A DNA stretch of 24,056 bases, from positions 1 through 24,056 of IMG/VR virus record IMGVR_UViG_3300031715_000024, one strand, 5' to 3'. Position 1 is the stretch's first letter, and every line of letters starts with the position of its first letter. The notes beneath the pieces were generated by a model. That model was not told where the DNA came from and did no database searches. It worked only from the letters and a program-made list of their open reading frames with translations. The translations under genes were made by a program, and so were the position numbers. Shown here in pieces: positions 2,730-14,312 of this stretch. The DNA comes from a virus.

Positions 2730-3461
2730 TCACCACATTATGTCGGTGGAGGGTTCATAATGTCCTACCCGTATATCGCACGCAATCGCGCAGCGATAGC
2801 CGTATTTTCGAGCATCCCCCCAGAAAACAAGATCCTGCGTGCCAATGCCTTCACCGTTCTTGCCGTTTTTGGTTCTGAACCATGGACGTTGTAAACGCTC
2901 ATCCTTGAACATACTCAAGCGAAACAAGTTGAAGCCCATTCCGGTACCGCAGCACTCAACGAGTCCACCATTCGGGTCTGGCAACTGAGGCCTGTAATTC
3001 GGAGTGGGGTCCTTTGGATCGCCCCAGATTTGCGCGCATCCCCCTTCGCCCTTCGTGAAGTAAAGTCCTCCGATACAGGCGAACTCCGGATGGTTCTCCA
3101 TGTGCTCAATCAACTTGATCACGCCGTCAGGAGGAGGGGCGTTATCGTGCTCAATCGTCAGTAGATATTCCCACTGACTCAATTCTGGGTTAGCCAATAT
3201 CTGTTCGAGAGCACTTGAGTATGCGTCTCCAACCTCTAACCCCTGCGCCAGATATCGAAAAATTCCATTGTTGGGTGGAAATGCCAAATTCCTCCAAGCC
3301 AGTACGCACTTCGCAGGAACCATATCGGCAGCGGGCATGATTTCCACGATCCGCTGTTTCTTCCAAGAGCCACCTTTCAGCAATCTAGCGCGAGTCTTGG
3401 CGAGATCCTTGTTGTGCTCGCCACCAAAGTCTTGAACGACCAACTGAGGTTTGTTACCCAT
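2730..3461 (-). CDS. GT-A-fold glycosyltransferase-like protein
   Basis: A 243-residue protein with the layout of a GT-A glycosyltransferase. Near the middle is YLLTIEHDNAPPPDGVIKL, with a DxD-like E-H-D-N followed by P-P-x-G. Then come GGLYFTKGEGG, a GTGMGFNLFRLSMF segment like the acceptor-side strand of GT2 enzymes, and near the end GTQDLVFWGDARKYGYRCAI plus VGHYEP. The order resembles GT2-like phage proteins in which the DxD is replaced by E-x-D. No membrane segment is present, so it should be cytoplasmic. A GTG at 3473 would add four residues. I prefer the ATG at 3461, which forms TAATG with the stop of the Gly-rich gene. Confidence is good for the fold and modest for activity; sugar and acceptor are unknown. 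Confidence 0.7.
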   Translation of the reverse strand: MGNKPQLVVQDFGGEHNKDLAKTRARLLKGGSWKKQRIVEIMPAADMVPAKCVLAWRNLAFPPNNGIFRYLAQGLEVGDAYSSALEQILANPELSQWEYLLTIEHDNAPPPDGVIKLIEHMENHPEFACIGGLYFTKGEGGCAQIWGDPKDPTPNYRPQLPDPNGGLVECCGTGMGFNLFRLSMFKDERLQRPWFRTKNGKNGEGIGTQDLVFWGDARKYGYRCAIACDIRVGHYEPSTDIMW

Positions 3462-4375
3462 TACACTACCCACGCAATCGTAGCCGAGTTGCTCGTTCCC
3501 GGTGTGTAGGTGAGCACGATGATGCCCTGTGCGCCGGAGCCGAAATTTGTATTACCAGTGTTGCCAGATCCGGCGCCACCACCGCCATATAAGCCACCGT
3601 TTCCAGGTGTAGTCGTATTGGTGTTATCTCCGCCGCCGCCGCCTCCTCCTGATCCATGCGATGAATCCCAATCGGTTCCGGGACCCCCGTTGCCGCCATT
3701 ACCGACGTTTGCTCCACCACCTCCGCCGCCTGCGGTACCTGCGGTACCAGCGCCTGCTCCCCCCGCGCCCCCACCGCTACCGAGATAGTTATTTCCTCCC
3801 GCACCTCCCACAAACTGGCTCGGTGGAGAATTTCCAGCAGAACCGCCGCCACCGCCGCCACCCCCGGCACCCGCCCATCCATTTTCAGCGGCCTGCTGGA
3901 TACCGCCCGCTGCTCCAGCTCCATTGGGACCTCCAGCGCCGCCACCACCGCAGCCTCCACCGCCTGCTGCAGGCGTGCCACCGTTGCCTCCATTGGCTCC
4001 GCTGGTGTTATTCGGAGAGCCGCCTGAGGCCAATCCGCCCACCCCGCCGATACCTCCTCCATTATTGGCAGCGCTGGCGCCTTTGGCGCCGCAGGAGCTT
4101 GCCGCGAGGGTTGAGCCGTTGAACCAGGTATCGCCGCCGGCCGCCGCAGCCGTAGCACCTCCGACACCGACCGAGAGATTGGCGCCTGTCGTCGCCGTGA
4201 CAGAGGTCGTGATGGCATACGCGCCACCCCCACCACCGGGCCCGTTATCCGGCGCTGCGGCCGAAGTGCAGCCAGCTCCGCCACCACCGATGCACTCGGC
4301 CTGCCCTGAGCCGGGCCAATTGCCGGGTGGACTGAATGTGCCTGCACCCGTGGCGACAATGTAGAAAAGCGCCAT
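3461..4375 (-). CDS. Glycine-rich fibre-tip / adhesin protein
   Basis: A 304-residue protein, mostly Gly with Ala, Asn, Ser and Thr. After a short beta start (ALFYIVATGAGTFSPPGNW) it has many GGGG and GGxGG runs, and it ends with AQGIIVLTYTP and a short hydrophobic tail. This is the Gly-rich phage tail-tip type, in which Gly-rich loops form a sandwich of polyglycine helices that bind receptors, as in T-even distal fibre adhesins. The final (G)-I-I-V-L-T-Y-T-P is typical of the family. Coding-strand G/C richness produces long shadow frames on both strands. It begins directly after the stop of the 80-residue gene (TGAATG) and ends in a TAATG overlap with the glycosyltransferase-like gene. Receptor unknown. 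Confidence 0.8.
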   Translation of the reverse strand: MALFYIVATGAGTFSPPGNWPGSGQAECIGGGGAGCTSAAAPDNGPGGGGGAYAITTSVTATTGANLSVGVGGATAAAAGGDTWFNGSTLAASSCGAKGASAANNGGGIGGVGGLASGGSPNNTSGANGGNGGTPAAGGGGCGGGGAGGPNGAGAAGGIQQAAENGWAGAGGGGGGGGSAGNSPPSQFVGGAGGNNYLGSGGGAGGAGAGTAGTAGGGGGGANVGNGGNGGPGTDWDSSHGSGGGGGGGDNTNTTTPGNGGLYGGGGAGSGNTGNTNFGSGAQGIIVLTYTPGTSNSATIAWVV

Positions 4376-4626: not shown

Positions 4627-6384
4627 TCACCACGTCCAGTTATTCACGATGAAGTTACCGAATTCACCCCCCGTGCCAGCGGTGAAGCCCGCATACGCGG
4701 AGTTGCTGCCAATGGTTCCGGGAATATTGATCGAAAAGCTCGTCGAAAAATTGTTGCTGTTGACAGTGTCCGTAATGGACATTGAGAGTGTTTGAGTACC
4801 GGCGTTATACGACAGCGAAACATTCAAAGGATGGCCAGACGCCAAACTGACTGGAGACACGCTAGAGCCGCTTGAGCCTCCAGGAGTAGCTCCGTCTGTG
4901 TACAGACCCGTTAGATTTTGGGTGCTACCATTTCCGAATACATCAAATTTGACTGCAACGCTCGCAGGAATCCCTGGGCTACCCGTGCCAGTGCCTTGTA
5001 GGCCTCCATATCCCATTCCCTGGCTACCGCCTCCAAAAGCAGTAGGCCCATTCGTGCTAGAAGCTTGAGTCGTAGGCTGAGAAAATGTCGAAGCCGATTG
5101 AAAGTTCTGTAGTACAAAACACATGCCCTGCGCTTGAGCACTCGTCAACTGTATTTGAAAGTTTGTGGTGAAATTTACATTGATCGGCAGAGGCGCTCCC
5201 CACCACATCGCCCCCACTTCGTTCCCATTCGTTGCATTGTTGGTGTCTGTCAACTGAATTGCAGAGCCGCTATAGACCGATCGACCCACCGGGATAACGC
5301 CATCCCCGCTGGTAAAACCGCTCCCGCAATTGACGATTAGCGACGTGCCGATTTGATACACATTCGAGGCGACCAAGCTGTCCGTGAAACCAGACTGGAT
5401 AGAGACCGCCTGAACGATCGTGTTGGAGCTGACTGTGAAACCACCCGTATACAGGGTACTGGCGGCTGTCGGGAGCAATCCGTTGGTCGTGTAGTAGATC
5501 GTACCAGGACCAGAGATTGTGACGGTCTGCGAAGATCCATACTGGCCAGAGGCTGGCGATATCGTCGGAGTCGATAGTCTCGTGTTATAGCCGTTATAGA
5601 AACTCCAAGATTGAATCGCCATGCCGACATTTGAAGAGACCGCTCCACCCGTAAATCCAACATAACCCTGAGTCAGAACATCAGATAAATTTAATGGCCA
5701 TTGGTATCTCGCTTGCGCAGCAGTGATTGTGTCCTCCAACACCATGGTAAGAAGAGAGCCGTCATAGACAATGGTGCAAGACAATACATTCCCATTGTAG
5801 AAATTGATTCCGTATGGGGTGATGTCCTGAGCGGGTGTTAGACCTGCATAGGGACCACTGTTTAAATATAGACCAGTGGAATTAGATCCGCCACCACTTG
5901 GATAGGTGACGGCATTTCCTGTGGAAGTATTTAAATCGAATTTGACTCCAATGCTAGGAGTCATGTTATTGAACTGGCCACCTAACTGATACAGGCCATA
6001 TCCCGCTACGTTTGCGTCACCTACGCCATGTATTCCTGTAAATCCAGAAGCCCCTGGTGGTGACGTGCTGTTCTGTATGACAAACAATCCACCGAATACA
6101 GTGGGCACCGTAACGCCGCTCGCGCCAACGAATTGGAAAGTAAATTGAGTCGTGAACGTACTGATCGTAAGGAGGGAGTTGTACCAAGCCCCACCACTCT
6201 TGTGGCCAGCATTCTGAAGCACCGTCCACAATTCGTTGCTGCTGATCGATGCTCCGGCCAGGGAAATATTCGGACTTCCCGAGAAGTCTGGAAAGTCGAA
6301 TACCAAGGTAGCCTGAGTTCCCGTCGAGTAGACAGAACCTCCAGACCCCAGGATTTTCCCTCCGGATAGAATGACTGCGCTCAC
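4627..6384 (-). CDS. Lectin-like adhesin: L-type lectin / chitobiase C-terminal-like / L-type lectin
   Basis: A 585-residue protein with three apparent modules. Residues 1 to about 265 and about 346-585 each read as an L-type (legume) lectin-like beta sandwich. Both carry a (S/A)-(V/I)-x-V-K-F-D strand (SIGVKFDL, SVAVKFDVFG), a T-G-L-Y segment, a (Y/A)-x-G-F-T strand (YVGFTGG, YAGFTAGTGG) and an end-strand W-(S/T)-(F/W). Residues about 270-345 resemble the chitobiase/hexosaminidase C-terminal domain: TPTISPASGQYGSSQTVTIS, then GTIYYTTNGLLPT and FTVSSNTIVQAVS. No catalytic acid pair is evident, so binding rather than cleavage is likely. Start is GTG at 6384, with no nearby in-frame ATG. Such combinations occur in soil bacterial surface proteins, so acquisition from a host is possible. 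Probable role: receptor recognition. Confidence 0.75.
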   Translation of the reverse strand: MSAVILSGGKILGSGGSVYSTGTQATLVFDFPDFSGSPNISLAGASISSNELWTVLQNAGHKSGGAWYNSLLTISTFTTQFTFQFVGASGVTVPTVFGGLFVIQNSTSPPGASGFTGIHGVGDANVAGYGLYQLGGQFNNMTPSIGVKFDLNTSTGNAVTYPSGGGSNSTGLYLNSGPYAGLTPAQDITPYGINFYNGNVLSCTIVYDGSLLTMVLEDTITAAQARYQWPLNLSDVLTQGYVGFTGGAVSSNVGMAIQSWSFYNGYNTRLSTPTISPASGQYGSSQTVTISGPGTIYYTTNGLLPTAASTLYTGGFTVSSNTIVQAVSIQSGFTDSLVASNVYQIGTSLIVNCGSGFTSGDGVIPVGRSVYSGSAIQLTDTNNATNGNEVGAMWWGAPLPINVNFTTNFQIQLTSAQAQGMCFVLQNFQSASTFSQPTTQASSTNGPTAFGGGSQGMGYGGLQGTGTGSPGIPASVAVKFDVFGNGSTQNLTGLYTDGATPGGSSGSSVSPVSLASGHPLNVSLSYNAGTQTLSMSITDTVNSNNFSTSFSINIPGTIGSNSAYAGFTAGTGGEFGNFIVNNWTW

Positions 6385-6387
6385 AAA

Positions 6388-9033
6388 CTACGCGCTCACG
6401 TTATAGAGATTCACAAACGGATAAATATTCCCTATGGAGCCGCTGATCTGTGATAGGCCGATCGATGCCGGAAGATTCGCGGACGTGGTGCTCCAGATTC
6501 CCGCGCCAAGGACCGCCTGGTTGGTTCCAGCAGTGCTTGATCCCAACAGGCCGTTGTATGTCAACGCGCCCTCTGCGGCGACGACGTTGTTGAACGTCGC
6601 AAAGTTGAATCCAGAGGATGCGGTATTGGACCACAGACCGATCCAGTAGTTTCCGGGAGTCATGCTGGCGGCTAGGGGAATCGTGAGCCCCTTGATTCCG
6701 GTGTAAAGACTCGCCGAGTTGTTCGATGTGTTGGTGAGTCCGTAGCTCGCAGAGCCTGAGGTAGCCAAAGACAGTGTCGAGCCGGTCAGCGTATAGATTC
6801 CCGCCTGCACCGAAATGGTATTTCCATAGCTCGAATTCGTTACCGAGAAACTACCCGAGATGTATTCCCGCAATGCCGAGATAGACAAATTCGCCTGGAC
6901 CGGCAGGTTCTGGAGAATGACACTCCCCGCACCGAGGGCCGTCGTGGACGCGGAGCCATTCAGCAATCCATTGTCCAGGTAAGAGAGTGTTCCGTAATTC
7001 GGGGCGCCGATGCTGATCGTGCTGGCGTTGACCGAGATGGAAATTGCGCCTGTGCCGCTGATCGAGGAGGTGGCTGGCGCGGAGACGAGTAGTGCGCTCC
7101 CGCTGAATCCTGCCGAGAGTGCGCCCGCAGCCGAAACGCTGATCGTGCGCGCATCCAGGGTTGTTGAGGATGACTGCCCGGTCGTGTTGCCAATCGCGTA
7201 GAAGCCTTCGGTCTGATTCGATTGCGTGGCCGACAAGACGATAGAGCTATTACTCCATCCGGCAGAGATCATTCCGGCAGCAGAGATCGAGAGCGTTTGA
7301 TCGCCCCCCGTGCTGATCGAGGACTGTCCAGTCGTATTGCCCTGAAAGTAATAGGCTGCTGTCGTAGCGACGGTAGGAACTGTGTAGGATGCACTAATCC
7401 CATTCGCGCCTGAGGAACCGAATGAAATACCGTTGGCGTTCTGAAGTGTTACGGTCCCTGACGTGTAGGTCGTGTTGGAGACCACAAGCCCACTGATGCC
7501 CGTCTGCGCCCCCCCCGCATTGGCGCCGGAAATGGTGATCGTCTGCGCGCCGCCTGCGGCAGTTCCGACACTGAGGGTGATATTGTTGCCGCCGGCGAAG
7601 ACAATCTGACCCGAATACGTCCCGGTATTGCCTGATGTGTTTCCGCCGGTGGAAACACCCGCCGAGAGCGCACCTCCCGCTCCACCGGAGATCGTCACCG
7701 TCATGCTGCCCGCATTGGTCGAGCCCGACAGGGTGATATTGTTTCCCCCCGCCAATATGAACTGCGCGGACGCCAATCCGGTATTTCCGGACGTGTTTCC
7801 GAGTGTGGAGATTCCCGCTGAGAGCTGCGTAAGCCCGGTCGTCCCCGGGGAGGAAATGATCAGGGTATTGCTCGACCAGCCAGCTGAGACCACTCCGGCC
7901 GCCGATAGATTCAATGAGCCAACCGTGTAGGTACTTTGGCTCGATTGACCCGTCGTATTGCCCGCGATGTAGATCGCTTCCGTCTGGCTGCTCCCGGCAG
8001 CGCCAGAGAGCGCGAGATTCAGTCCTCCGCTGTTCAGCGTCATCGACCCAGAGATATTCGTCCCGCTGAACGTCGTCCCAGTGCCTGCAAACTGCGTGCT
8101 GTTGTAGCTCGCCGAAATGCCATTCGCGCCGCTCGAGCCGAATGAGATGCCGTTGGCGTTCTGAAAGGTCACCGTCCCACTGGTATAGGTCGTATTGCTG
8201 ACCTGAAGTCCAGAAATCCCGGTCTGAGCTCCGCCCGCGTTGGCCCCTGAAATCGTGATCGAGTTGCCATTCTGGCTGAGCGTGACGTTATTACCGCCGG
8301 CCAGGATCAGGGTCCCTGTCGAAACGAGTGCCAAGGTGCCGGTCGTATTGCCTGCCGCGGAAACCTCGATCCCTCCCGTACCCCCCGTGGTCACGTACGC
8401 CGGAACACCCAGTGATAGACCCGCTGTATTCAGGGTTCCGACAACGGCTGTCCCCGCCGTGGTCGTAGAAGTAAACCCCGTTCCGGCGATGGCCCCCGAT
8501 GCCTGAGTCTGGACGCTCTGAGTCGTGATATAGGGGGGTACGCCGAGGGTGAAACCCGTCGTATTGTGCGTGCCGACGATTGCCGTCCCGGCCGTCGAGG
8601 TCGTATTGAACCCCGTAGCGCCGAGATTCGAGGCGTTGATCTGCAATCCCGCCGATCCCATCGTGATCGACAGATTTCCAGAGACGGAGGTTCCCAGACC
8701 GGCCCCGGAAGTCGAATTGATCGAAGCCGTGATCGTGCCGTTGTTGAGTCCGAACGAAACTCCATTCGAGTTCGGAAAAGTCACTCCACCGAAGGCACCT
8801 GAAGTACTTCCGGCAGAAACCGATAGCGTCGCAGCGGCGGCCGTATTCGCCGAGATCGTGATGTTGTTGCCCTGCTGGCTCAGGGTGACGTTGTTTCCAC
8901 CCGCCAGAATCAAGGTCCCGGCGCTGACTAGGGCGAGCGTGCCCGTGGTGTTGCCCCCGGCTGAAATATTGATGCCGCCCACTGCGCCGCCTCCGGGGAT
9001 ATAGGCGAGACCGCCTGTTGATGCAATTGCCAT
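6388..9033 (-). CDS. Repeat-rich tail fibre / adhesin
   Basis: An 881-residue, nearly uncharged protein rich in Gly, Ser, Thr, Asn and Ala, built of repeating beta segments, as expected for an elongated trimeric phage fibre. Repeats include AGNTTGTLALVS followed by TLILAGGNNVTLSQ at residues 27-61 and 227-262, GF-x-S/T-T-x-TAGTA at 141-171 and 186-215, and ISFGSSGANGISASY ending two 45-residue near-identical units. The last 150 residues are less repetitive and probably form the receptor-binding head. No enzyme motif was seen. It starts one base after the stop of the 214-residue virion protein, so it is translated as part of the same message. An eight-base G run lies in the coding strand near 7509-7516. 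Confidence 0.8.
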   Translation of the reverse strand: MAIASTGGLAYIPGGGAVGGINISAGGNTTGTLALVSAGTLILAGGNNVTLSQQGNNITISANTAAAATLSVSAGSTSGAFGGVTFPNSNGVSFGLNNGTITASINSTSGAGLGTSVSGNLSITMGSAGLQINASNLGATGFNTTSTAGTAIVGTHNTTGFTLGVPPYITTQSVQTQASGAIAGTGFTSTTTAGTAVVGTLNTAGLSLGVPAYVTTGGTGGIEVSAAGNTTGTLALVSTGTLILAGGNNVTLSQNGNSITISGANAGGAQTGISGLQVSNTTYTSGTVTFQNANGISFGSSGANGISASYNSTQFAGTGTTFSGTNISGSMTLNSGGLNLALSGAAGSSQTEAIYIAGNTTGQSSQSTYTVGSLNLSAAGVVSAGWSSNTLIISSPGTTGLTQLSAGISTLGNTSGNTGLASAQFILAGGNNITLSGSTNAGSMTVTISGGAGGALSAGVSTGGNTSGNTGTYSGQIVFAGGNNITLSVGTAAGGAQTITISGANAGGAQTGISGLVVSNTTYTSGTVTLQNANGISFGSSGANGISASYTVPTVATTAAYYFQGNTTGQSSISTGGDQTLSISAAGMISAGWSNSSIVLSATQSNQTEGFYAIGNTTGQSSSTTLDARTISVSAAGALSAGFSGSALLVSAPATSSISGTGAISISVNASTISIGAPNYGTLSYLDNGLLNGSASTTALGAGSVILQNLPVQANLSISALREYISGSFSVTNSSYGNTISVQAGIYTLTGSTLSLATSGSASYGLTNTSNNSASLYTGIKGLTIPLAASMTPGNYWIGLWSNTASSGFNFATFNNVVAAEGALTYNGLLGSSTAGTNQAVLGAGIWSTTSANLPASIGLSQISGSIGNIYPFVNLYNVSA
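7384..7518 (-). repeat. Fibre repeat unit, copy B (45 codons)
   Basis: This encodes a 45-residue unit that begins AGGAQTGISGLVVSNTTY and ends SSGANGISASY. It matches copy A (8104-8238) at 43 of 45 residues; the two differences are Q/V and F/L. By hand count the DNA differs at about 37 of 135 positions, mostly in synonymous positions including Ser codons switching between the TCN and AGY classes. The unit contains the G8 tract. Confidence 0.85.
8104..8238 (-). repeat. Fibre repeat unit, copy A (45 codons)
   Basis: Partner of the unit at 7384-7518, at residues 266-310 of the fibre. Same length with no indel; protein nearly identical and DNA only about 73 percent identical by hand count. The pairing shows an internal duplication kept at protein level. 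Confidence 0.85.
8248..8355 (-). repeat. Fibre beta-repeat, copy 2 (AGNTTGTLALVS unit)
   Basis: Encodes residues 227-262 of the fibre, which match residues 27-61 (8851-8955) except for a few substitutions such as S-T-G versus S-A-G and QNGNS versus QQGNN. It lies directly before repeat copy A, so the two units together form a composite block. Confidence 0.75.
8851..8955 (-). repeat. Fibre beta-repeat, copy 1 (AGNTTGTLALVS unit)
   Basis: Encodes residues 27-61 near the N-terminus of the fibre. It is the first occurrence of the AGNTTGTLALVS plus TLILAGGNNVTLSQ unit, later repeated at 8248-8355. Shorter partial echoes (ILAGGNN, FAGGNN, GNTTGQSS) continue through the fibre. Confidence 0.75.
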
Positions 9034-9034
9034 G

Positions 9035-9679
9035 TTATGCGTTCGCTACGTTGGCTTGCGCAAAGGTCGTCGTGACAGTGCCCGTGCCACTATTCAAGAG
9101 CACTCGCGCAAAGGTCGGTGAGAACAGGAAATTCGTCTGCACTACTCCCGTGGCGTTGACCGCATTCGTATCGTTCGTATTCACCCAGTCCACCGCAGAG
9201 GGTGTAACCGGCGCAAAAGCGCTGTTCGGATCGTCCATCGTCGATTGCACGGTATAGTTCGCGGTGCCTGTTCCGTTGCATTGAATGGCTACTTGCGTGT
9301 TGGCCCACTCGTCGAGGCGTACCCAAGGCGTGCTCGCGATGGAATTCGTACCCACCGTGACAGCACCCGTAGCCGCACCCGAAATCGTGATCGAAGTCAC
9401 CGTCGCGTAGTCCAACGCGGAATAGGTCGACCCTCCCGACACGAGAAAGGATTCCGTCAGGAGCGTCCCTGTTGGGGTCGTCCCCGTGATCGTGAATGTC
9501 TCGGTCGTATCCGATGTCGTGATCAGAATTCGACGGGGGGTGTCCAGGATGGCGACACCGCCAGTGACCAAGCTACTGTTCAGCGTCAGCGCGCCGGCGC
9601 CTGCAGGAGTTTGCGACGTCGCGATATTGTTCGCGCTGGCGGCAGCGAGCGGGCCTACAGTCACGATAATCGGTCGCAT
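9035..9679 (-). CDS. Beta-rich virion structural protein (function unknown)
   Basis: A 214-residue Thr/Ser/Ala/Asn-rich beta protein. The N-terminus (MRPIIVTVGPLAAASANNIA) and the TFTITGTTPTGTLLTESF and WANTQVAIQCNGTGTANY segments are typical of small phage virion proteins encoded between capsid and tail-fibre genes. Charge is low and there are no enzyme motifs. I cannot assign it to a precise structure; a head-tail joining, head fibre or fibre-base protein is possible. It starts at ATG 9679 with a strong ribosome binding site (TGGAGA seven bases upstream), immediately after an intrinsic terminator. It is therefore the first gene of the fibre module and may be read from terminator read-through or its own promoter. 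The repeat fibre follows after one base. Confidence 0.7.
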   Translation of the reverse strand: MRPIIVTVGPLAAASANNIATSQTPAGAGALTLNSSLVTGGVAILDTPRRILITTSDTTETFTITGTTPTGTLLTESFLVSGGSTYSALDYATVTSITISGAATGAVTVGTNSIASTPWVRLDEWANTQVAIQCNGTGTANYTVQSTMDDPNSAFAPVTPSAVDWVNTNDTNAVNATGVVQTNFLFSPTFARVLLNSGTGTVTTTFAQANVANA

Positions 9680-10102: not shown

Positions 10103-10687
10103 CTACGAGGCCAAATTGATGCCCTGCAAATATTCCACGGTCAGTGTCCCCACGCCCGACCCCGTGTTGGTCGACAGCACCACAATCTGCACATCCTGCG
10201 TCCCGACGTTGTCCCAGTTGCCGATCTGTGTCGCGCCCGTGCCGGGAGTGATGGATACTTGACCCAACGCACCGGAGGTCACTACCGCATTGGCCGCCGT
10301 GAAAGCCGTCGCCGAAGCGCCTGAGCCAATGCCGAGGGTCGTTGCACCGCCCGTCCAAGCGGTCGTCACCATCAGCTTGATCGCTGTGATCTGGCTCTGC
10401 GCGGGGATCACGATCGGACAGGCAAACTGGCCCGTAGTGCCGTCATTGGTTGCCTGAGTGATTACGCATGATTGCGCCATACGGGCATAGCCCACATTCG
10501 CGGTGCCCGACGTCTCACCAACACCCGCGAGATTTCCAGTCCCGTCGCTTTGAAACACGTTGCCGGACAACACGGGACCGGTGAACAAGGTCCCCGGAAA
10601 AACCGGATTGCCATTCGTCTGCGTGATCTGACCGCCGGTGATATCCGGCCATGTCTGCCCGCTCGTCGGAGAAATGTAGGTCGTCAT
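10103..10687 (-). CDS. Virion structural protein downstream of the capsid gene (function unknown)
   Basis: A 194-residue, low-charge, Thr/Gly/Ala-rich beta protein. The N-terminus (TTYISPTSGQTWPDITGG) is followed by repeated short strands and ends VGTLTVEYLQGINLAS. Composition resembles the decoration or fibre-base proteins of this cluster, with two Cys in the middle. I recognise no precise family. Start is ATG 10687 in a TAATG overlap with the homing endonuclease stop, and GAGGA nine bases upstream serves as ribosome binding site. Before the endonuclease arrived, the gene probably followed the major capsid gene directly. Possible roles are a head-decoration or head-completion protein. Confidence 0.65.
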   Translation of the reverse strand: MTTYISPTSGQTWPDITGGQITQTNGNPVFPGTLFTGPVLSGNVFQSDGTGNLAGVGETSGTANVGYARMAQSCVITQATNDGTTGQFACPIVIPAQSQITAIKLMVTTAWTGGATTLGIGSGASATAFTAANAVVTSGALGQVSITPGTGATQIGNWDNVGTQDVQIVVLSTNTGSGVGTLTVEYLQGINLAS

Positions 10688-11373
10688 TACTTCGATTCCT
10701 CATTCGTCACGAGGGTCAGGGTCGGGACAGCGGATTCGCGGCCGACGTGTTTATCTAGGTATTTCACGGCGGACAACAAGATGTTTCTATCATCCTTCGC
10801 TTTTCCGATCATCGTGTTGCATTGGGCGCAAAGAAGTCCACGGATGTTTCCAGTATCATGGCAATGATCGACAGCAAGCGTCTTTATCTTGCCATTTCTG
10901 GTCGCGGTCTCGACCTGTTTGCAAATGGCACATTTGCCATCCTGGGCCAACAACATGTCGCAGTATTGCTTCATGGTTATGCCGAACTTGCGCTGACGCT
11001 CCTTCGCAACGAATTCTTCACGCTTTGAAGCACGATATTCCAACTGATACGCAGCACGCCCTTCTTTCGTTCCGTGATCGTACTTCGTATCGATATAAAA
11101 ACCTTCTCGCAGGTTATCTATCCTGCAATCGTCGTGATCACAATTCTGAAAGCGGATCAATCGAGGCCATGTGCCATGAACCCAGAACCATGCTAGACGT
11201 TGAGAGAAATACTGAATCCCATCAATAATGATGGTGCGATATCCGTGTTCTCCCACAGAGCCCGCACGCGTTCCATAGCGACGACCCCGACCACGTGCGA
11301 TACAGGTAAAGACGCCAGTCTCCGGGTTGTAGGAGAGCAGCTCTTTTAGTCTTTCGATTGTCAGTCTTTCCAT
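10687..11373 (-). CDS. Homing endonuclease: degenerate HNH_3-like domain fused to endonuclease VII-like domain
   Basis: A 228-residue free-standing nuclease. Residues about 8-95 resemble the HNH_3/NUMOD-type module of phage homing enzymes (LLSYNPETGVFTCI, the RLAWFWVHGTWP strand, then DDCRIDNLREG), but the usual D-H before x-N reads R-F-Q-N, so the first catalytic His is lost. Residues about 140-210 match recombination endonuclease VII: C148-x2-C151, D169-H170-C171-H172, TGNIRGLLC182-x2-C185-N186, then MIGKAKDD. Zinc cysteines, catalytic D-H and Asn are all present, so this half is predicted active. The ATG at 11373 has GAGGAA upstream, buried in a hairpin. It sits between the capsid gene and the next virion gene and looks AT-richer than its neighbours, as expected for an inserted mobile gene. 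Confidence 0.85.
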   Translation of the reverse strand: MERLTIERLKELLSYNPETGVFTCIARGRGRRYGTRAGSVGEHGYRTIIIDGIQYFSQRLAWFWVHGTWPRLIRFQNCDHDDCRIDNLREGFYIDTKYDHGTKEGRAAYQLEYRASKREEFVAKERQRKFGITMKQYCDMLLAQDGKCAICKQVETATRNGKIKTLAVDHCHDTGNIRGLLCAQCNTMIGKAKDDRNILLSAVKYLDKHVGRESAVPTLTLVTNEESK

Positions 11374-11408: not shown

Positions 11409-12323
11409 TTACGATGTCGGGAAGCTCCCGAAAATGGATCTCCAGTTGAAATAGTTGAAAGAGTATCTTTGATAACCTTTGACAAGCAAATTGTCGGTCA
11501 CGAAGTCAACTTGCATGTCCGTTTCGAACGGAATGCGGTTCATGTATGCCAATCCTGCAATGTTGGTCAACAAAAACCACGCATATGACGAGGTGAGGTA
11601 ATCCATCACCATGTAGCCTTCGGGGATACCTCCGGCTGTCGAGAGGATCGCGTTGACGTCGTTATCAGCCGTCCCTGGGCGGAGTTCAGTCTTGGTGAGC
11701 CGTATACCGACTGGCTCAAGTTGCGGCGGTATGATCAGCTTGCGGCCGCGAGCGAACATCTTCAGGCCAGCCTGATCACGGAAGTTTGTTCGGACAGAGA
11801 TCATGCCATTGAGCAGTGTTGCCTCGTTCAGGTCGACCTGGGTCGTCGGCGTGTTGGCGATCGTCTGTCCGTCAATTGGATGCGCCGTCGAGCACATCGC
11901 CACACCGTCGCCGCCCACCGAAGCGTTATAGGTGGTTGCGGTGTTGAGGATATTCGCACCGTAGATTTCCATCGTTTGATGGAATGCTTCCATGAGGCCC
12001 AGATTGGACGGATGGAATTGGGTCTTGTAGAGGTTGTCGTCGATCGCCTTGCGGGTGATCGCGTATCCCAGGCCAATCTCGACATGCTCCTGGTTGTAGA
12101 CGTAGCGCTCACCGGCGTTGTTGTCGAATGCGGTCTGACCGCCTTCTGTCTTGAGCTGCGCGAGCCCCAAGTAACGCATCTCGGCGGTTCTTTCCAACGC
12201 TAACTTGCTGTTAAACGTGGTAAAAACTTTATCGTACTGGGATGGTATCTGCTCATATTTTCCTGTGATTCCGCGCAACCCAGGAAGCAAAAGGTCTTTG
12301 ATAGCTGACAGATTAACGGCCAT
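11409..12323 (-). CDS. Major capsid protein (Mu gpT-like)
   Basis: A 304-residue protein that fits the HK97-fold capsid class. The start (AVNLSAIKDLLLPGLRGITG, then YEQIPSQYDKVF) and the middle (VEIGLGYAITRKAIDDN, the AMCSTAHPIDGQ strand) parallel Mu gpT-type major head subunits. The C-terminus carries QVDFVTDNLLVKGYQRYSF and NYFNWRSIFGS, a pattern common to phage capsid ends. Length is typical. No N-terminal prohead-protease region is obvious. It forms the virion shell, probably helped by the GroES-like protein and scaffold encoded upstream. Start is ATG 12323, with GGAGAG five bases upstream. That ribosome binding site lies inside the last codons of the preceding HNH gene, and the two genes overlap by 11 bases. 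Confidence 0.85.
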   Translation of the reverse strand: MAVNLSAIKDLLLPGLRGITGKYEQIPSQYDKVFTTFNSKLALERTAEMRYLGLAQLKTEGGQTAFDNNAGERYVYNQEHVEIGLGYAITRKAIDDNLYKTQFHPSNLGLMEAFHQTMEIYGANILNTATTYNASVGGDGVAMCSTAHPIDGQTIANTPTTQVDLNEATLLNGMISVRTNFRDQAGLKMFARGRKLIIPPQLEPVGIRLTKTELRPGTADNDVNAILSTAGGIPEGYMVMDYLTSSYAWFLLTNIAGLAYMNRIPFETDMQVDFVTDNLLVKGYQRYSFNYFNWRSIFGSFPTS

Positions 12324-12852
12324 TTACGCTCTCCAGACCGGTTGCTCCAAACAGATGTTTCCAGCGTTTTCCCGCACGTATTTGCCAAACGCTGTGGTAC
12401 GAAATCCCGTATTTCTTTGCGAGTTCGCCCGGTTTAAGACTCGAAGTTAGGATGTCCACAACTTGCGCAGTGACGAGCTTTGAAGTGCCGATCTGTTCGC
12501 CCATCACGGCGCGCCTACGGCGCGCTTCGCGGTCGGCCATGTTTTCCTTGACAGTGCCAGCGCGCAGATGCGCCGGATTCACACACGCCGGCATGTCGCA
12601 TCTATGAAGAATGTGCAGCCCAACCGGGATCGGGCCTTTGAACAGTTCATAGCTGACACGATGTGCTCGACGGTCCTTCGACCGAAAGGACACCATCCCA
12701 TATCCTCTGCCGTCAGTCGTCCCAGTCCATATCCAGCAACCCGTCTCGGACATACGGCATTTGTTGAATAGCTTTGCTTTCTGCAAATCCTCATCCGTGA
12801 CGCGCTCAAACGGCACGTACTCGGATAAGTCGATGTCGTAAGACTTACCCAT
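12313..12852 (-). CDS. HNH homing endonuclease with C-terminal helix-turn-helix
   Basis: A 179-residue HNH_3-type endonuclease. It has CWIWTGTTDGRGYGMV at residues 39-54, RAHRVSYELFKGPIPVGLHI, and the catalytic HRCDMPACVNPAHLRAGT with H83, N92 and H95 intact, followed by NMADREARRR. Residues about 122-167 form a predicted DNA-binding helix-turn-helix (LKPGELAKKYGISYHSVWQI, then GKRWKHL), as in many phage HNH homing enzymes. It should cut DNA near alleles lacking the insertion and spread by repair. The ATG at 12852, four bases beyond the upstream TAA, is preferred; an upstream ATG at 12891 would overlap the preceding gene by nearly 40 bases and add a non-conserved leader. The ribosome binding site is weak. 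It is inserted directly ahead of the capsid gene without breaking it. Confidence 0.85.
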   Translation of the reverse strand: MGKSYDIDLSEYVPFERVTDEDLQKAKLFNKCRMSETGCWIWTGTTDGRGYGMVSFRSKDRRAHRVSYELFKGPIPVGLHILHRCDMPACVNPAHLRAGTVKENMADREARRRRAVMGEQIGTSKLVTAQVVDILTSSLKPGELAKKYGISYHSVWQIRAGKRWKHLFGATGLESVNGR

Positions 12853-12853
12853 G

Positions 12854-13474
12854 TTATGTATTGGTCGCCGTTGCGTTGCGCGTTTCCACATTGTTGAACG
12901 CCACGACCGCCAGGTTGTAGGCCCCCGAGGCCGTACCGGGTGCGCCCGGTGGCGTGGTCACGAGACTGACGAGTCGCCATGGATAGGCAGCGGTCGTTAC
13001 ACCGGTGTGCAATAGGAAGGCTCCCGAGAGCCCGTTGGCGGTCGTACCGGTGCCGATCGAGAAATCAAAGTTGGATCCAACGCCCGCTTGGGTGACGCCG
13101 GTGGAGTCGCTTTGAACAAGAAACTGGGCGTTCGGATCGTTGATCACGTACGCTTCGATGGTCGATTGGCTGCCACTGGCAACCGGGCTACCGCCGGGCC
13201 AGTAGTTGGACCAGAGCGTTCGGGAGAGGACCGTCGAGAGGAATTTGCAGCCCTGGAAGATGCCGGCCATCGTGACCGTGCCACTTCCTGCGGAACCCGC
13301 TGCTTGAGTTAGGGTGCCGTCGCCGGATCCGACTCGGACGACTGGGTCACCGTAAAAAATCGCCCCGGCGTTATAGTCGATACCGCCTGGGCCGAAGGTA
13401 ACCTGCTCGTAGGTTGGGGCGCTTCCCGTTCCGGAATATTGCCTGAACCCAAAAGGCGCCGAGACATTGGCCAT
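12854..13474 (-). CDS. Capsid decoration-type protein upstream of capsid gene
   Basis: A 206-residue protein beginning MANVSAPFGFRQYSGTG, then APTYEQVTFGPGG and AGAIFYGDPVVRVGSG. Further on are AGIFQGCKFLST and LWSNYWPGG. The order (N-V-x-x-P-x-G-F-R, G-D-P-V, A-G-I-F-x-G-C-x-(Y/F)-L-S, W-P-G) matches conserved phage proteins usually encoded next to the major capsid gene, which I take to be capsid decoration proteins. The assignment is by position and pattern. A TTG at 13489 would add five residues. I chose the ATG at 13474, where GGAG lies nine bases upstream. A promoter candidate and hairpin lie in the 135 bases ahead of it. The HNH gene follows after one base. Confidence 0.7.
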   Translation of the reverse strand: MANVSAPFGFRQYSGTGSAPTYEQVTFGPGGIDYNAGAIFYGDPVVRVGSGDGTLTQAAGSAGSGTVTMAGIFQGCKFLSTVLSRTLWSNYWPGGSPVASGSQSTIEAYVINDPNAQFLVQSDSTGVTQAGVGSNFDFSIGTGTTANGLSGAFLLHTGVTTAAYPWRLVSLVTTPPGAPGTASGAYNLAVVAFNNVETRNATATNT

Positions 13475-13609: not shown

Positions 13610-14251
13610 TCAGTTTTTTGGTTCTGTCAGCATTTTTTCTACTGACCATCTTCTCTCACGACGCCCCCTCAACATGCTGTAACTGATGCCCAGATGTTCG
13701 GCCCATTCGGGCAATGTCATTGTCAATCCGTCGAAGGTTATTTTCACACTGTTGCGTCTGTTTCTTGCCTGATCTATGGGCGTTCGCCACGCGCAATTAT
13801 CCTTGAAGTACCCTAGGTTATTATCCAATCGATCTATTGTCAGCCCACGAGGGGGTTCCCCCATATCTTCAAGGAAATTCTCGAATTTAAGCCACCGCTC
13901 GCAAATGGTGATACCTCGTGCGCCATAGTCTTCATAACTAGACACATTAGGATTTTTGCATCTGCTAATTATGTTTCGCCAAATTCCATAGATCTTCCCT
14001 CGGCGCCCACGCTTGGAATGACCATGTTTTAGGTTTCTTGCGATGGTAACTTCAGCTTGAAGGCATCCACAGCTTCGACTATGCCCTATGCGAAGCTTGT
14101 AACTACCCACAAATTGCACAGTACCGCAATCGCAGCGGCACTCATGAAAATGAGTCGTGGTTCCAGATGGATAAGTGCGACTTTCTGTGGCTTCTAGTAC
14201 AGTCCAGCGCCCAAAGCGGTCCCCGGCCATGATAGCCTTTGCGGCAGACAT
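13610..14251 (-). CDS. Homing endonuclease-like protein with N-terminal zinc-binding motif
   Basis: A 213-residue protein of a widespread free-standing phage nuclease type. N-terminal residues 11-63 carry GDRFGRWTVLEATE and a Cys cluster (C38, C40, C42, then SCGC at 60-63), a likely zinc ribbon. The core (residues about 90-170) has SRCKNPN, YEDYGARGITICERW, FLEDMGEPPRGLTIDRLDNN, then GYFKDNCAWRTPIDQARNRR, a conserved phage pattern thought to be nucleolytic. The C-terminus (TLPEWAEHLGISYSML, then RWSVEKML) resembles a NUMOD-type DNA-binding helix. Start is ATG 14251, chosen over an upstream ATG-extended reading because AAGGAG lies six bases upstream. That site sits within a hairpin. Base composition by eye is AT-richer than the flanking genes. 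It separates two structural genes, as an intronless mobile insertion would. Confidence 0.75.
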   Translation of the reverse strand: MSAAKAIMAGDRFGRWTVLEATESRTYPSGTTTHFHECRCDCGTVQFVGSYKLRIGHSRSCGCLQAEVTIARNLKHGHSKRGRRGKIYGIWRNIISRCKNPNVSSYEDYGARGITICERWLKFENFLEDMGEPPRGLTIDRLDNNLGYFKDNCAWRTPIDQARNRRNSVKITFDGLTMTLPEWAEHLGISYSMLRGRRERRWSVEKMLTEPKN

Positions 14252-14252
14252 G

Positions 14253-14274
14253 ACGATCTCCTTTTTCAGATCGT
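14253..14274 (-). promoter_or_regulatory. RNA hairpin over the ribosome binding site of the zinc-ribbon endonuclease gene
   Basis: ACGATCT pairs perfectly with AGATCGT across an eight-base loop (GAAAAAGG) and ends one base before the ATG. The AAGGAG ribosome binding site spans the loop and the start of the 3' arm, so it should be partly blocked. Together with the stem at 11383-11402, two of the three endonuclease genes have such a structure. Confidence 0.55.
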
Positions 14275-14285
14275 TGTGTTTAGGG

Positions 14286-14312
14286 TGACGCGATGCTGAT
14301 AACACCGCGTCA
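14286..14312. other. Inverted repeat between conserved phage gene and endonuclease
   Basis: TGACGCG and CGCGTCA form a seven-pair stem with a 13-base loop. Neither strand has a U-run after it, so it is not an intrinsic terminator. It lies in the 81-base gap ahead of the zinc-ribbon endonuclease and could be an mRNA processing or regulatory stem. It could also be a remnant of the insertion junction. Role unknown. Confidence 0.35.

Follow-up and report, generated by a model that had tools for sequence, protein, structure and literature searches.

The window, by which we mean the whole 24,056-nucleotide stretch of viral DNA that was analysed (positions 1 to 24,056 of IMG/VR record IMGVR_UViG_3300031715_000024), encodes on its minus strand a protein of 585 amino acids in which two L-type lectin domains flank a chitobiase C-terminal-like (CHB) domain. 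The gene begins with a GTG codon 7 nt past the stop of a long fibre gene, which lies directly upstream in the transcript. The features at the locus are as follows.

4627..6384, minus strand: lectin/CHB/lectin protein, 585 amino acids, with the same domain order in five other viral contigs
6319..6384, minus strand: N-terminal tag, residues 1 to 22, MSAVILSGGKILGSGGSVYSTG, a proposed virion-docking peptide common to otherwise differing post-fibre proteins of sister phages
5584..6312, minus strand: N-terminal L-type lectin domain, residues 25 to 267
6010..6018, minus strand: D123-A124-N125 motif in loop B of the N-terminal lectin
5350..5577, minus strand: CHB_HEX_C_1 spacer domain, residues 270 to 345
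4630..5349, minus strand: C-terminal L-type lectin domain, residues 346 to 585
6388..9033, minus strand: long repetitive fibre of 881 amino acids with repeated GGNNITLSQ motifs, the proposed docking partner
2730..3473, minus strand: downstream glycosyltransferase-like gene (weak Pfam Glycos_transf_2), used as a marker for collecting the phage family

Elsewhere in the window, two open reading frames for endonucleases of the Endonuclease VII/HNH_3 type (10687-11373 and 12313-12891) stand between structural genes on either side of the capsid gene, and a third, endonuclease-like by eye and with no Pfam match, lies at 13610-14305.

Domain layout and lectin sites

The first-pass annotation of this DNA had read the protein as two lectins around a chitobiase-like module, and profile searches for both families support that layout at scores above the curated cut-offs. 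Pfam Lectin_legB (PF00139) matches with an E value of 1.3e-22 and 81 bits against a cut-off of 26.3, in two stretches of which the best spans residues 367 to 584, and CHB_HEX_C_1 (PF13290) matches residues 277 to 339 with an E value of 3.9e-14 and 52.8 bits against a cut-off of 22. The protein belongs to no PHROGs family, and no signal peptide is evident in it. A full-length AlphaFold2 model from a nine-row alignment has a pLDDT of 69 with confident beta cores, and comparison by VIA-align matches its residues 25 to 267 to legume lectins at Z 25.2 and its residues 347 to 585 to legume lectins at Z 25.3 (rmsd 2.6 over 208 residues). A separate prediction of the N-terminal half, based on a 54-row alignment, gave pLDDT 81 and pTM 0.85, and the top solved structures for this model are likewise legume lectins, with 5t50 giving Z 25.8 and rmsd 2.9 over 215 residues. 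A Foldseek search of viral predicted structures returned poor superpositions only. In these models, both halves have the jelly-roll L-type lectin fold, as had been anticipated. The first lectin had been placed at residues 1 to 265; a lectin is indeed there, at 25 to 267, but residues 1 to 22 form a separate tag that also occurs on unrelated proteins of sister phages.

The predicted halves share their fold with the legume lectins of PF00139 at Z about 25, but the window protein carries them in tandem on a single chain, with a spacer between, and both its sugar-binding Asp and its metal-site pattern are altered. The Asp of loop A (the ADG motif), the residue that holds the sugar in legume lectins, is replaced in its alignment column by F97 in the N-terminal half and Q419 in the C-terminal half. 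Of 96 bacterial domains, collected with scan patterns that partly selected for the loop-A motif, 88 have this Asp, whereas the first eight viral halves all lack it; when the residue counts were repeated on bacterial domains outside the retrieval pattern, the Asp was present in 19 of 27. A by-eye reading of two further viral proteins (L138 and L156) found it absent from all four halves, giving 0 of 12 viral halves overall. The Glu of the GEG motif, presumably a Ca-site residue, follows the same course (82 of 96 bacterial domains versus 0 of the first 8 viral halves). Since the viral lectins have neither residue, what they bind may be something other than a sugar. The glycan receptor suggested earlier is still plausible, although the canonical sugar-binding Asp is lacking in every viral lectin half, and glycan binding by the window lectins is inferred. 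All six viral N-terminal halves carry a DAN motif at loop B (residues 123 to 125 in the window protein), immediately followed by G[YF]G, and the DAN motif was found in none of the bacterial open reading frames retrieved. In legume lectins, loop B takes part in forming the sugar site, and D123 or N125 may therefore stand in for the missing loop-A Asp.

Viral and bacterial relatives of the cassette

The nearest relatives of the window protein are five other viral proteins, each from a further IMG/VR contig with lectin-CHB-lectin, and the cassettes are pairwise 38 to 49% identical. The L002 protein (619 amino acids) comes from the same phage family, with a TerL 61% identical to that of the window, and the L018 protein (616 amino acids) from a different backbone with a phrog_267 capsid. 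The proteins of L156 (601 amino acids) and L138 (951 amino acids) were both reached through the glycosyltransferase-like neighbour gene. In L005, an unrelated phage, the cassette makes up the C-terminal portion of a 1267-amino-acid protein in which Pfam finds DUF2460 (E 6.5e-31), a GH71 glycosyl hydrolase (E 1e-35), and then lectin-CHB-lectin, at 45% identity to the window cassette. Unlike the window gene, this cassette is fused to a tail domain and an enzyme within a GTA-like tail operon, next to a long tape-measure-like reading frame, a hub protein, NlpC/P60, and an Rcc01698-like tail protein. The fusion physically ties the cassette to a tail, and no other evidence points as strongly to its being a tail component. 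L005 carries tandem DUF2460 genes (5218-5853 and 5856-9659), the second of which is fused to GH71 and lectin-CHB-lectin, apparently a duplicated tail protein that now carries an enzyme and an adhesin. No window-type TerL was detected in the L005 or L018 genomes. A search of 50,697 phage records (INPHARED) turned up no protein with lectin-CHB-lectin, its matches being mainly to CHB stretches, and degenerate-pattern tblastn scans of viral contigs (A6) and genomes (A2) gave no match. Roughly ten CHB_HEX_C domains make up a Phocaeicola phage BV57P2 protein (L004, 4464-7568).

A phylogeny of 104 lectin domains places the viral N-terminal halves in one clade (SH-aLRT 99) and the viral C-terminal halves in another (95), which indicates that the halves are old, distinct paralogues passed on together. 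Lectin-CHB-lectin would, on these sequences, have arisen once in viruses or been captured long ago. The whole-cassette tree likewise places the viral cassettes in one clade (100/100), within which L156 pairs with L018 of the unrelated backbone (89/92). A single clade for the four window-family cassettes was rejected (p-AU 0.009), the group having been defined by the neighbour gene and the pairwise identities having been seen beforehand. Since the cassette tree conflicts with the TerL backbone, cassettes have passed from one phage to another.

A genome scan yielded 77 bacterial loci, mostly from Acidobacteriota with some from Planctomycetota and others, whose proteins alternate CHB and lectin domains. 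The first-pass annotation had pointed to Acidobacteriota from the module types, and this holds: the order lectin-CHB-lectin occurs verbatim in multi-domain proteins at four bacterial loci (L026, L028, L038, and L055). These and related proteins, such as WP_338026817 of Acidisarcina polymorpha, have the same domain families at 34 to 38% identity; however, they are typically 1000 to 2100 amino acids long with a large N-terminal part, whereas the window protein has 585 amino acids and a 22-residue tag. They also mostly keep the ADG Asp and the GEG Glu that the viral lectins have both lost. In 396 Acidobacteriota genomes no match extended over more than about two thirds of the profile, and those found lay within bacterial multi-domain proteins; the nearest TerL in the same genomes is only 40% identical. 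The suggested host origin thus stands at the level of the modules but not as a simple descent from a host gene, because the viral halves form clades apart from the bacterial lectins and any capture must be old. The phage probably belongs to a soil setting, as judged from these bacterial relatives and not from the window itself.

We consider it exceedingly improbable that the gene is a recently captured host fragment without selected function or the product of a chimeric assembly. The module order does occur verbatim in Acidobacteriota, but the frame is open within a syntenic tail cluster and has six viral members, and each half belongs to a viral clade of its own (support 95 to 99) with a DAN motif confined to viruses. 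Recent host gene capture was rejected on the viral-only clades and the lack of any full-length match at E 1e-20 in the 396 Acidobacteriota genomes, and chimeric assembly or a chance reading frame on the six viral members and the tail synteny.

A proposed docking tag and an exchangeable slot

A search of IMG/VR with the glycosyltransferase-like gene gave 117 confirmed relatives; with the best 80 of these taken, 82 marked genes were counted, the window's included, and 63 contigs had more than 4 kb upstream. In these sister phages the pair of fibre and following gene recurs with gaps of 0 to 7 nt, and the second gene usually starts with a tag of about 20 residues, of consensus MS-x-V-x-x-x-G-G-x-I-x-G-x-x-G-x-V-F, followed by a Gly/Ser linker. 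After non-slot genes and two untagged ones were set aside, the tag was present on 17 of 18 different post-fibre reading frames picked by adjacency alone. Leave-one-out profiles recovered 19 of 21 tags and failed on the other two, with the window tag found at an E value of 2e-9 (HMM). The sole further reading frame to score high in nearly all of these tests was the second tagged gene of L165. That contig has two consecutive tagged proteins (4707-6161 and 6158-8947) behind one fibre, and the second has a GDSH motif, noted by eye, that is suggestive of an SGNH hydrolase.

The cargos in this position are mostly unrelated to one another by BLAST. Lectin-CHB-lectin occupies it in the window and in L156, and three CHB domains followed by lectin-CHB-lectin occupy it in L138. 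GH5, of the cellulase family, is found in L144 (7679-9118), L191 (2364-3728), and L193 (2212-4650), all three behind a recovered tag, and three CHB domains with GH5 in L002 (1951-4044), where the tag is weak and was not recovered by leave-one-out. Other cargos combine CHB with an unknown fold, many have no family, and a PDB sequence search of four unknown cargos gave no match. Many contigs of the family are without a slot gene, two slot genes are untagged (L194, 8019-9974, and L154, 9343-10014), and the lectin-CHB-lectin gene of L002 lies several genes from the fibre and is also untagged. As read from the contig sequences, the post-fibre gene position is an exchangeable slot with the layout of a second receptor-binding protein. 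The L194 gene, with a signal-peptide-like start, a PKD domain, and no tag, is a counterexample to the docking model. Past the slot, the window (3461-4375) and its sister loci encode a variable protein, glycine-rich or other, that overlaps the start of the glycosyltransferase-like gene; its C terminus in sister phages is often (T/S)IAWV-x.

It is quite improbable that the window protein acts off the virion, released at lysis or secreted, for instance in polysaccharide binding or degradation as the product of an auxiliary metabolic gene. Reports commonly class the glycoside hydrolases of soil viruses as auxiliary genes (PMC6172770), and the L194 slot neighbour with its signal-peptide-like start would suit such a role; against this stand the lack of an evident signal peptide in the window protein, the conserved N-terminal tag beside the fibre, and the DUF2460 fusion in L005.

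Second receptor-binding proteins of KP32-, KP34-, and K1-5-like phages, the anchor-branch systems, attach by a conserved N-terminal peptide (PMC6872550). The window family resembles them in having a short conserved N-terminal peptide, variable glycan-active C-terminal domains, a place near the first fibre, and horizontal exchange. It differs in the sequence of the peptide, in a partner fibre without a T4gp10-like docking domain by Pfam, which finds no family at all in the 881 residues, and in its cargo, which is L-type lectins with CHB spacers and GH5 where the known systems carry beta-helix depolymerases. A literature search on L-type lectin phage adhesins and on phages infecting Acidobacteria found no matching description. 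Two identical fibres from Acinetobacter phages are known to contain Concanavalin A-like domains (PMC11058221), and acidobacterial phage isolates exist, the Tunturi viruses, in a text without lectin, chitobiase, or receptor (PMC11924767). A peptide-docked, exchangeable receptor-binding protein is of a known kind; the literature searched contains no description of the lectin-CHB-lectin cargo, of the tag, or of the phage family.

Proposed role and meaning for the phage family

We judge that the 585-amino-acid protein is probably a virion-attached accessory receptor-binding protein, an adhesin, docked by its tag in an exchangeable slot. The receptor-binding role, already put forward in the initial reading, is favoured by the post-fibre place in the tail cluster, the shared docking tag, the DUF2460-GH71 tail fusion in L005, and the lack of an evident signal peptide. 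Counted against it are the fibre without a T4gp10-like domain by Pfam, the two untagged slot genes, the two tags failing recovery, the lost sugar residues, and the L002 gene that is untagged and off the slot. We infer the presence of the protein in the virion, its docking partner, its glycan ligand, and the host. The short N-terminal tag would anchor the protein to the tail, probably at or next to the upstream long fibre, through the Gly/Ser linker. The CHB module would act as a spacer between two non-equivalent lectin domains, each with its own altered binding site, and these multivalent heads would grip polysaccharide of the host surface or of an exopolysaccharide matrix. The slot would serve as an exchange site in which the same tag carries different cargo (GH5 glycanases, CHB arrays, other domains), such that a cassette swap would give the phage a different glycan coat to hold or cut.

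Virion-displayed lectins might instead attach to polysaccharide of soil or plants, or to exopolysaccharide in general, keeping the phage near its hosts with no host receptor involved. The altered sugar sites, the broad exchange of modules, and the CHB and lectin modules typical of large bacterial multi-domain proteins would all be compatible with such environmental adhesion, which we nevertheless regard as rather unlikely, as the GH5 enzymes in the same tail slot and the baseplate-type fusion in L005 fit contact with a host surface better.

The adhesin reading may extend to the family, a tentative generalization to which we give somewhat less than an even chance. In a large phage family, one tag would plug exchangeable glycan modules of host origin (lectin-CHB-lectin, GH5, CHB arrays, and others) onto the tail, with cassettes crossing between unrelated phages and the viral lectin site rebuilt around DAN; the family's GH5 genes, counted as carbon-cycling auxiliary genes of soil viruses, would be tail parts for passing the host coat. 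In this family, GH5 slot proteins behind the proposed docking tag are more simply read as depolymerases than as products of auxiliary metabolic genes, and such genes may be miscounted as the latter in soil viromes. The remodelled L-type lectin pair offers a concrete target for learning how a lectin site gets rebuilt. Little is known of host recognition by phages of uncultivated soil bacteria, and a tag that marks the slot would allow the modules used for recognition across an entire phage family to be listed from contigs alone, and host prediction to be tested.
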